The notes under the pieces were generated by a model. The model searched no databases. It was given only the letters and a program-made list of their open reading frames with translations, and was not told the DNA's origin. A DNA stretch of 42,895 bases, from the NCBI GenBank assembly GCA_024640465.1, contig JAHEEX010000005.1:1-42895 (forward strand). Reading direction: 5' to 3'. Positions 37,554 through 40,542 of this stretch are shown in pieces; position 1 is the first letter of the stretch; each line of letters starts with the position of its first letter. Source of the DNA: Sphingobacteriales bacterium (GTDB lineage Bacteria; Bacteroidota; Bacteroidia; Chitinophagales; Chitinophagaceae). The position numbers were made by a program, and so were the translations under genes.

Positions 37554-39263
37554 TTACATTTTATAGGCGAGTACAATACCCCTTTTCATTATTTTTCTTT
37601 TGCCTTCCAGGTTAAAGATCTCCGTCACCAAATAATATATTCCCACAGGAAGACTATGGGTTTTTTCATCCAGTCCATTCCATCGAAAGAATCCGCTGGT
37701 ACCACAAAGATTATTCCTAACCAGGTATCTCACGGGTCGGCCACCATGATCAAAAATGATGATGGAGCAAGTATATCCGGGACCCGGAAATTTGTATTGA
37801 ATGGTTAGTTGATCGTCATGACCATCCTGATCCGGGGAAAAGGTCAACGGACTGATATTGATTTCGCCTTCAACCGGGTCTTCCTGGCGGAACTGTGAAT
37901 TGACATATCCCGGAGTACCATAGCCTGCATCAGTTGCCGCTGATTGCCAGTTTGCCGGGTCTTGTGAAAGGCTTGCCGGATTGATGCGTTCCAGGGACAC
38001 GCCTTCCCTGTTAGCTAAGAGTGGAAAATGGTAGTCATCCTTATATGTAAAAAGGTCCAGTTCTTTACCCTGTGAATCCATTATCATAACCAGGCCCTGA
38101 TCATCCGGATAGGAAGGCATTTCGGGTAAACTAAGTATATGTTGCCTGTCTTTGACTATATACTCACGCTCAACTATATCCGAATTTTCTGTCAGGGCGT
38201 AAAATTCACCCGGGAAAAGCAGAAATGGGGACTCGCTGCATTTTTTCAGGCTCCCTGCAGGGCCATTCCGTTGGTTTCCTATGTAAATGTTTTGCAGGTT
38301 CAGGATACCCGGCCCACGGTTAAATAATTCAACATAATCAACACCCCCGGGCCTTGGGTCAAAGAGTATTTCATTAATCCTCAATTGTCCATCAATAGGA
38401 GGCAGGGGAATTCCGGTTTTAACTTCCCCCTGGTCCTGGCTGGTATTTCCGGCACAGTCTGTTGACTCTTTGACGCGCAAAAAATACACCTGTGTTCTTT
38501 CTAAAGGTGTTGACAAGCGCAAGAGGGCTTCTTTGAATAGTGGTGCAGCCAGGCTTACAGAAAACGGACGACCAATACCTGGTCCGATCTCATATCGTTG
38601 AGGGTTAACCGAAATGGTGCTATCAAGGCTTTCATTAAATACAGCCGCAACAGTAATGCTGTCGATAGTGTAACTGCGCAGCAAGATTGGTGGCGACTTG
38701 TCCGGGGCAACTGCATTTACGCTATTCATTTTACCGGGTGTTCCACCTTTATCTGCAATACTCGCCACCCAATTTTCACTTTCTTTACAGGGCATACGGA
38801 GGTCGATCATTTCCAGCGACCAACCGCCTTCCTGTTTCAATTGATTTCTGTACCATTCCGGTTTATAAGATATGGCATGAACTGTTTTTCCTTCGGGAGA
38901 TATAAGCACAATTACATCTCCGGTATTATCGAGGGAGGGGAATGCACTAACCCCTATGGCTGCCCCAAATGCATTGAAAGAATGTATAAAAGCCCGGGGG
39001 CATATAATCACCTGGCTATCTGCCTGAAGCAAAAATGGGCCTGCAATTGTTGCTATGCTATTACCGTCTGAAATTTTCCATTTGTCGAGGTTAATACTTC
39101 GATCGGATATGTTGGTTAATTCCAGGAATTCGCTGTTGGGAAGACCAACAGATGGAGAGGGATCCGGGAAAATTTCAGAGATGACTATGTCATACCTGTT
39201 TATATTTTGAGCAGGCAGGTATTTAGTAAACAGGCAAAAAAGGAAGAGACATACATTTTTCAT
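37554..39263 (-). CDS. secreted lamin-tail-domain protein with gliding-motility/T9SS-type C-terminus
   Basis: 569 aa; two lamin-tail-like segments (IVISEIFPDPSPSVGLPNSEFLELTNIS; LRINEILFDPRPGGVDYVELFNRGPG); C-terminal SPDQDGHDDQLTIQY...GFFRWNGLDEKTHSLPVGIYYLVTEIF. Confidence 0.85.
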   Translation of the reverse strand: MKNVCLFLFCLFTKYLPAQNINRYDIVISEIFPDPSPSVGLPNSEFLELTNISDRSINLDKWKISDGNSIATIAGPFLLQADSQVIICPRAFIHSFNAFGAAIGVSAFPSLDNTGDVIVLISPEGKTVHAISYKPEWYRNQLKQEGGWSLEMIDLRMPCKESENWVASIADKGGTPGKMNSVNAVAPDKSPPILLRSYTIDSITVAAVFNESLDSTISVNPQRYEIGPGIGRPFSVSLAAPLFKEALLRLSTPLERTQVYFLRVKESTDCAGNTSQDQGEVKTGIPLPPIDGQLRINEILFDPRPGGVDYVELFNRGPGILNLQNIYIGNQRNGPAGSLKKCSESPFLLFPGEFYALTENSDIVEREYIVKDRQHILSLPEMPSYPDDQGLVMIMDSQGKELDLFTYKDDYHFPLLANREGVSLERINPASLSQDPANWQSAATDAGYGTPGYVNSQFRQEDPVEGEINISPLTFSPDQDGHDDQLTIQYKFPGPGYTCSIIIFDHGGRPVRYLVRNNLCGTSGFFRWNGLDEKTHSLPVGIYYLVTEIFNLEGKRKIMKRGIVLAYKM

Positions 39264-39316: not shown

Positions 39317-39348
39317 TTTGGCAGAAAAAACTTTCCCCTTTACTTTTG
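39317..39348 (+). promoter_or_regulatory. Bacteroidota-type promoter (TTTG - N20 - TACTTTTG) for asd leader transcript
   Basis: TTTG 39317-39320, 20-nt spacer, TACTTTTG 39341-39348, matching the TTTG/TAnnTTTG consensus. Confidence 0.7.
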
Positions 39349-39356
39349 GACACGAA

Positions 39357-39419
39357 ATGCAATTGAGAAAAAAACATACAAAACAGATTAAAAAACATTC
39401 CTCTAAAGCGGAAGGTTAA
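39357..39419 (+). CDS. putative Lys-rich leader peptide upstream of asd
   Basis: ATG CAA TTG AGA AAA AAA CAT ACA AAA CAG ATT AAA AAA CAT TCC TCT AAA GCG GAA GGT TAA = MQLRKKHTKQIKKHSSKAEG*; 6 of 20 residues are Lys; starts ~9 nt after the -7 element. Confidence 0.55.
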   Translation: MQLRKKHTKQIKKHSSKAEG

Positions 39420-39477
39420 GATATTTTGTATGTTACTAAATATGTCTAAAGCCTTCCGGAAGCGGAAGGTTTTTTTT
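39409..39477 (+). promoter_or_regulatory. candidate transcription attenuator: antiterminator (39409-39458) vs terminator (39452-39477)
   Basis: cggaagg (39409-39415) and cggaagg (39463-39469) both complement ccttccg (39452-39458); the second pairing has loop GAAG and is followed by T8. Confidence 0.7.
39452..39477 (+). terminator. intrinsic terminator in the asd 5' leader
   Basis: ccttccg-gaag-cggaagg-tttttttt; oriented on the + strand, 57 nt upstream of the asd ATG. Confidence 0.85.
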
Positions 39478-39534
39478 ATAATCCATTTTTAAACAATAAA
39501 ACTTCCTCTGAAAAGGGGATGAAAGGAGGACCAA

Positions 39535-40542
39535 ATGAAAGTTGCTGTAGTTGGCGCCACCGGACTGGTGGGCACAAAAATGTTAGCTGTTCTGGCAGAA
39601 AGAAATTTTCCTGTAGACGAACTCATTCCTGTTGCATCAGAGAAATCCATTGGAAAGGAAGTCTTCTATAAAGGGAAAGCATTTAAGGTAGTGGGCGTGC
39701 AGGAAGCCATTGCAGCTAAACCGGATGTAGCCCTCTTTTCCGCAGGAGGCAGTACCTCATTGGAACAGGCACCTCTTTTTGCTGCGGCAGGGATAACTGT
39801 AATTGACAATTCTTCTGCATGGCGGATGGACCCTACAAAAAAACTGGTTGTGCCAGAGATCAATGCAGGTGAATTAACCCGTAATGATAAGATTATTGCC
39901 AATCCAAACTGCTCTACAATTCAGATGGTGGTTGCATTGAACCCATTACACAGGAAATATACAATAAAAAGGATCGTTGTTTCAACATATCAGAGTGTTA
40001 CAGGTACCGGTAAAAAGGCGGTGGATCAATTGATGGGAGAACGTCAAAAAGCAGTACAGGGAAGTGCTGCAGATTACCCGATGGCCTATAAATATCCTAT
40101 TGATCTTAACGTTATCCCCCAGATTGATGTATTTCTTGAAAATGGATATACGAAAGAAGAAATGAAGATGGTGAATGAAACTAAAAAAATAATGGGCGAT
40201 AATTCCATCCAGGTTACAGCAACTACAGTACGCATTCCCGTTATGGGCGGACACAGCGAAAGTGTAAATGTGGAATTTGAACATGAATTTGATTTGGCTG
40301 AACTTCGAAACCTCCTGATCAGTGCGCCAGGTGTTGTGGTAGTGGACGATCCTTCTAACCAACAGTATCCAATGCCCATGGATGCACACGAAAGGGACGA
40401 GGTTTTTGTTGGCCGGCTGAGAAGGGATGAAACGCAACCCAAAACGTTGAATATGTGGATCGTATCTGATAACCTTCGTAAGGGAGCGGCTACAAACGCG
40501 GTTCAGATTGCAGAGTATCTTGCTGCTAAGGGATTGTTATAG
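39535..40542 (+). CDS. asd: aspartate-semialdehyde dehydrogenase
   Basis: 335 aa; KVAVVGATGLVGTKMLAVL, VPEINAGEL, NPNCSTIQMVVALNPL (catalytic Cys), STYQSVTGTGKKA, GHSESVNVEFE. Confidence 0.96.
   Translation: MKVAVVGATGLVGTKMLAVLAERNFPVDELIPVASEKSIGKEVFYKGKAFKVVGVQEAIAAKPDVALFSAGGSTSLEQAPLFAAAGITVIDNSSAWRMDPTKKLVVPEINAGELTRNDKIIANPNCSTIQMVVALNPLHRKYTIKRIVVSTYQSVTGTGKKAVDQLMGERQKAVQGSAADYPMAYKYPIDLNVIPQIDVFLENGYTKEEMKMVNETKKIMGDNSIQVTATTVRIPVMGGHSESVNVEFEHEFDLAELRNLLISAPGVVVVDDPSNQQYPMPMDAHERDEVFVGRLRRDETQPKTLNMWIVSDNLRKGAATNAVQIAEYLAAKGLL

Follow-up and report, generated by a model that had tools for sequence, protein, structure and literature searches.

A putative lysine-codon transcription attenuator in front of asd in the Chitinophagaceae

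The asd gene of a Sphingobacteriales bacterium from the Chitinophagaceae—a family of soil and water bacteria—is preceded by a short, lysine-rich leader that we interpret, with a probability of roughly 90%, as a classical ribosome-mediated transcription attenuator reading the supply of charged lysyl-tRNA. The locus lies in a 42,895-nucleotide stretch of DNA (GenBank assembly GCA_024640465.1, contig JAHEEX010000005.1), referred to here as the window. The anatomy of the leader, its conservation, coding frame, covariation and predicted folds were computed, and from these we infer ribosome stalling, a lysyl-tRNA signal and termination in vivo.

In the proposed mechanism, transcription would begin a base or two ahead of the leader AUG. 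With lysyl-tRNA plentiful, the ribosome would reach the stop codon and cover GGAAGG (segment 2), whereupon segments 3 and 4 would form a terminator and asd would be switched off. With lysyl-tRNA scarce, the ribosome would stall at a conserved Lys codon and cover segment 1, segment 2 would pair with segment 3, no terminator would form and asd would be transcribed. If the leader were left untranslated, segments 1 and 2 would pair and the terminator would form again. Across the family, the device very probably turns on the lysine pathway in response to a shortage of lysine.

Parts and predicted folds of the leader

A first-pass annotation had proposed a lysine-responsive attenuator at this site, and its promoter, leader open reading frame (ORF), six Lys codons, repeated segments, terminator loop, T8 run and spacing to asd all proved to match the sequence in every coordinate. 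The parts, as now understood, are as follows.

39317–39348, + strand: asd promoter of Bacteroidota type, TTTG-N20-TACTTTTG, with TTTG at 39317–39320 and TACTTTTG at 39341–39348
39357–39419, + strand: leader peptide ORF, MQLRKKHTKQIKKHSSKAEG and stop; 20 codons, ATG at 39357, Lys at codons 5, 6, 9, 12, 13 and 17
39373–39383, + strand: segment 1, AACATACAAAA, within codons 6–9; pairs with segment 2b as the predicted protector helix
39409–39416, + strand: segment 2a, CGGAAGGT, predicted 5′ arm of the antiterminator; overlaps the final leader codons and includes CGGAAGG at 39409–39415
39424–39434, + strand: segment 2b, TTTTGTATGTT, partner of segment 1 or part of the inner stem of the antiterminator
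39448–39458, + strand: segment 3, AAAGCCTTCCG, common to antiterminator and terminator; includes CCTTCCG at 39452–39458
39463–39477, + strand: segment 4, CGGAAGG (39463–39469) with T8 (39470–39477), the 3′ arm and U-tract of the intrinsic terminator
39535–40542, + strand: asd, aspartate-semialdehyde dehydrogenase (335 aa, TIGR01296), the predicted regulated gene

The whole attenuator spans 39355–39477, with the terminator hairpin and T-run at 39448–39477; a GAAG loop separates segments 3 and 4, and 57 nt lie between the T-run and the asd ATG (39535). The asd product was identified as Asd by a match to TIGR01296 (E 1e-132) that exceeds the curated cut-off. The 20-aa leader peptide had no match in Pfam or NCBIfam and is therefore not a catalogued small protein. 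As the first-pass annotation had pointed out, no + strand gene lies directly upstream: the neighbour (37554–39263, − strand) is divergent, so the asd-proximal terminator is not needed by any + strand gene on that side. This neighbour encodes a 569-aa lamin-tail-domain protein whose C-terminus matches a type IX secretion signal weakly, below the cut-off.

The leader folded more stably than all but one of 200 shuffles (z = −3.8). The twin CGGAAGG copies are both complementary to CCTTCCG, and their distal pairing, read from the outset as a terminator, gave z = −4.1 against shuffles and was by far the strongest terminator of its region. The proximal pairing, which had been proposed as an antiterminator with an inner stem, duly appeared when the RNA was folded without segment 4, CGGAAGGUU pairing with AGCCUUCCG around that stem at −18 kcal/mol. 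The full leader fold held one further helix, absent from the earlier description: an 11-pair protector joining AACAUACAAAA (39373–39383) to UUUUGUAUGUU (39424–39434), which places the true segment 1 within the Lys codons. Its addition makes the arrangement a complete 1:2 / 2:3 / 3:4 attenuator, all three of the mutually exclusive helices having been found on folding, and predicts that an untranslated leader would also be a terminating state.

Ribosome stalls simulated at Lys codons 5, 6, 9, 12 and 13 of the window produced the antiterminator, even at equilibrium, and a ribosome at Lys17, a ribosome at the stop codon or no ribosome at all produced the terminator. The original switch model, in which a ribosome finishing the leader permits termination and a stalled one frees the antiterminator, thus agrees with the folds, but the element that it called segment 1 is really segment 2. 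Its view of the Lys codons as regulatory likewise needs trimming: it stands for codons 5, 6, 9, 12 and 13 and falls for Lys17, because a ribosome there already covers segment 2. The regulatory Lys codons, as predicted from these folds, are the conserved 6, 9, 12 and 13, together with 5.

Conservation, coding frame and pairing in relatives

Regions upstream of asd were sampled from 29 genus members (window included), 128 further family members—picked from the closest Asd proteins—and 80 named genomes, and were searched with a leader profile built from seed sequences. The profile matched 27 of 29, 123 of 128 and 23 of 80, respectively, the positives among the named genomes including Niastella, Flavihumibacter, Filimonas, Limnovirga and Sediminibacterium. 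All of the matches in the genus and family samples (150/157 regions, from Chitinophagaceae with close Asd) exceeded 31 bits; leader scores ran from 31 to 96 bits, and dinucleotide shuffles reached no more than 6.1, the antisense strand no more than 26.1. Counts by bit score equalled those obtained with an nhmmer E below 1e-3, a threshold that is itself too lenient because antisense strands reach 26 bits. With the same profile, no asd leader was found at 57 other Bacteroidota loci from the 80 named genomes (leader-negative records include Mucilaginibacter, Pedobacter, Sphingobacterium, Dyadobacter, Hymenobacter, Spirosoma and Algoriphagus), and the asd leader was absent from 24 family genomes with Asd 63–76% identical. 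Judged by these matches, the asd leader is widespread in the family, not universal.

Comparison with relatives had been suggested as a check on the initial proposal, and it came out in favour: more than 100 relatives share the leader frame, the four Lys codons, the two alternative pairings and the terminator, with compensatory changes. Two genus mates (L016 in G012 and L019 in G010) lack the leader ORF and terminator upstream of asd and carry the same promoter about 7 nt from the asd ATG, so asd in these genomes is nearly leaderless. They represent a natural deletion that predicts unattenuated asd, and the loss of the leader from both makes the attenuator dispensable.

A TAnnTT[TC]G box occurs in 74 of 84 relatives' leaders, mostly 6–9 nt before the leader ATG, and 69 of the 74 box-bearing leaders have a TTTG/TTGG element at the −33 position. 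Given this placement of the −7 box, transcription should start no more than a few bases from the AUG; for the window, the expected start site is at about 39354–39356 and the leader would be nearly leaderless.

The first-pass annotation had cautioned that Lys codons come easily from A-rich DNA, and on that footing the ORF might be a chance one beside the ordinary terminator of an upstream gene. A coding test over 90 divergent leader representatives excludes this: Lys accounts for 38.1% of core codons when these are read in frame and for 4.6% and 15.0% when the other frames are read. The core consensus is K-H-T-K-R-T-K-K, with Lys at core positions 1, 4, 7 and 8 in 79, 76, 69 and 70 of the 90. 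Stop codons across the core are almost confined to the two other frames, and in most core codons it is the third position that varies most (AAA/AAG, CGC/CGT, ACN). With the upstream gene divergent, and with conservation, frame, covariation and geometry all found in relatives, a chance ORF is refuted by the conserved frame, codons and pairings and has a probability of practically nil.

RNAalifold, run on the family alignment, recovered the terminator only: MAFFT fails to align segment 2 correctly across genera, and helices 1:2 and 2:3 are in competition. Complementarity was therefore tested by segment swaps and by pair counts within one genus. Segments paired better within species than after any swap between species (1:2, z 7.6; 2:3, z 5.3; 3:4, z 20.2); relatedness inflates figures of this kind, but slid controls for the genus pair counts do not reproduce the signal. 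Four pairs of the 1:2 helix in that genus show changes on both sides, one of them being U-A in 11 and C-G in 9 genus mates, where the usual change in the leader codon is CAU to CAC, which is synonymous.

The geometry of the leader also fits the proposed switch. A ribosome covers about 11–12 nt downstream from the first A-site base. Segment 2 begins 11 nt or more beyond the final conserved Lys codon in 85 of 86 representatives, with a mode of 17, and would thus stay clear of a ribosome stalled at that codon; relative to the stop codon it begins somewhere from −14 to +6 nt in all 86, where a terminating ribosome would cover it. When the ribosome footprint was removed and the RNA folded as it would stand before segment 4 is made, the antiterminator formed in 85/85 representatives with the ribosome on the first or last conserved Lys codon, and in 0/85 with the ribosome at the stop. 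With every segment included, equilibrium folding in about 75% of relatives prefers the terminator despite a ribosome on a Lys codon, and antitermination in these would therefore have to rely on the order of folding.

Leaders at other genes and the identity of the signal

The target gene alone does not settle the signal, because Asd serves Lys, Thr and Met. Further copies of the leader were sought in genomes with a covariance model, and strong ones turned up at dapA. Four relatives have the same Lys leader before dapA (L247 in G070, L248 in G042, L249 in G144 and L250 in G077), with the peptides MLMIKKNTKRSKKHSQCTEG, MQNIQKHTKQVKTISIQGKG, MQNIQKHTKQVKTISIQREG and MTMIKKYNKVSKKRSILQEG; DapA acts specifically in the branch leading to diaminopimelate and lysine. 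Of the 24 genomes from the sub-lineage without the asd leader, 7 carry Lys-rich leaders before aspC-lysC or lysC (loci L355, L356, L359, L363, L365, L368 and L369). The lysC leader peptides (e.g. MMNNKPYKKDKKRIPQR and MVIKKLHKELKRLAAGRPQ) keep the Lys codons and not the core peptide, and the aspC-lysC leaders share the four segments and differ in terminator sequence (GGCTTACC-type). This distribution suggests a shift of the control point between asd and lysC. Leaders of the same four-segment build, MKPVTHIHHHHSLPKR and MLQNTHIHHHHTYREV, precede the hisG operon (L253 in G128 and L255 in G144), those of two genomes carrying THIHHHH. Read as predicted attenuators, they are a built-in positive control, with His codons at hisG showing codons that follow the product. 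The genes asd, dapA and aspC-lysC are all on the route to lysine. Taken together, the dapA, aspC-lysC and hisG leaders indicate lysine as the signal of the asd leader.

Weak R1 matches outside the family were mostly terminators adjoining unrelated genes and were discarded; those retained lie at hisG (G128, G144), lysA (G349) and aspC-lysC (G135). The lysA case, from another family of the order (L263), is a possible Lys-rich leader, MMIYKHKSSKRFLPKW, with a terminator, and G041 has a possible lysA leader as well. In the window's own genome, the device was seen only at asd, with none convincing at the dapA, lysA, lysC and hisG genes checked.

The leader might instead be multivalent, reading Lys and Thr together as two products of the Asd branch point, and we regard this as unlikely. 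Thr is the second commonest leader residue (11%), its two core sites are filled in 72/90 and 46/90 representatives, and Thr starvation would still stall the ribosome at a permissive place, so a weak Thr response is conceivable. The first Thr, however, sits in segment 1, where pairing accounts for it; the second site often holds I, N or S instead; and the dapA and lysC leaders retain Lys, mostly without the second Thr.

Less probable still is an arrest peptide, in which the KHTKRTKK sequence itself, and not the lysyl-tRNA supply, would stall the ribosome, sensing for example an antibiotic, a polyamine or lysine itself. Translation through Lys-rich stretches encoded by AAA can be slow, which would suit such a peptide, and the core is conserved beyond Lys, in His and Thr codons for which pairing accounts in part only. 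Yet these codons lie in segment 1, where pairing constrains them, the lysC leaders have kept their Lys codons and lost the peptide, and HIHHHH appears in the similarly built hisG leaders, as codon counting predicts.

A lysine riboswitch or another ligand-binding RNA, with the ORF incidental, would also place a terminator and an alternative helix before a lysine-pathway gene. Such an RNA is very improbable here: no Rfam family matched the window at its gathering score, the lysine riboswitch RF00168 was found in 0/61 family genomes and in 4 positive controls, the reading frame is under coding selection and the position of the stop codon tracks segment 2.

With lysyl-tRNA as the preferred signal, lysine synthesis in the Chitinophagaceae is likely to be governed by lysine-codon attenuators borne on nearly leaderless transcripts, rather than by a riboswitch, with a regulon that shifts within the family: asd carries the device in most of the family, dapA does so too in some genera, and aspC-lysC has it in members of the sub-lineage in which asd has no leader. 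Such attenuators would form a lysine-specific class of leader-peptide attenuation. Since Asd supplies the cell wall with diaminopimelate as well, a switch at asd would couple both wall and protein synthesis to the availability of lysine.

Relation to known attenuators and riboswitches

The 1:2 / 2:3 / 3:4 layout of the asd leader is that of the trp and his attenuators. Enterobacterial trp, his, thr, leu, ilv and phe attenuators (RF00513, RF00514, RF00506, RF00512, RF01859) likewise have a short ORF rich in codons for the product, the same alternation of segments ending in a U-tract terminator, and a stop codon located where a ribosome that terminates prevents the antiterminator from forming. 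The asd leader differs from them in reading, as predicted, lysine and none of the listed amino acids, in belonging to Bacteroidota and not Proteobacteria, and in having its promoter so close to the AUG that no space is left for a ribosome-binding site. None of the Rfam amino-acid leader families (His, Leu, Trp, Thr, Phe) reached its gathering threshold in the window; the best sub-threshold match, at a loose threshold, was to Phe_leader, full length, with 27.9 bits against a gathering score of 55.

The lysine riboswitch (L-box, RF00168), known from Firmicutes, gamma-proteobacteria and Thermotogales (PMC3766115), likewise controls lysine-pathway genes, often via premature termination, but its aptamer senses free lysine directly, unlike the asd leader. 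Closer in kind is the upstream ORF of the Corynebacterium ilvBNC leader (ilvB-II motif, PMC10272879), also found comparatively and also combining a conserved ORF, codons for the product and a terminator; it concerns branched-chain amino acids and Actinobacteria, unlike the asd leader.

A 2013 survey described attenuator motifs for His, Leu, Thr, Trp, Ile/Val and Phe, suggested that amino-acid attenuators may have originated in gamma-proteobacteria and placed lysine control with the riboswitch (PMC3766115). We found no lysine leader-peptide attenuator in the literature searched, although Lopatovskaya, Seliverstov and Lyubetsky 2010 (cited in PMC4833913) might list a related prediction. A lysine attenuator across a large Bacteroidota family would widen both the amino-acid range and the phylogenetic range of attenuators, and its near-leaderless start raises the question of whether RNA polymerase and the leading ribosome stay closely coupled in Bacteroidota when translation initiates without a ribosome-binding site. 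Set beside these systems, the mechanism looks classical, and what looks new, on the sequence evidence assembled here, is its lysine specificity, its phylum and its near-leaderless start.
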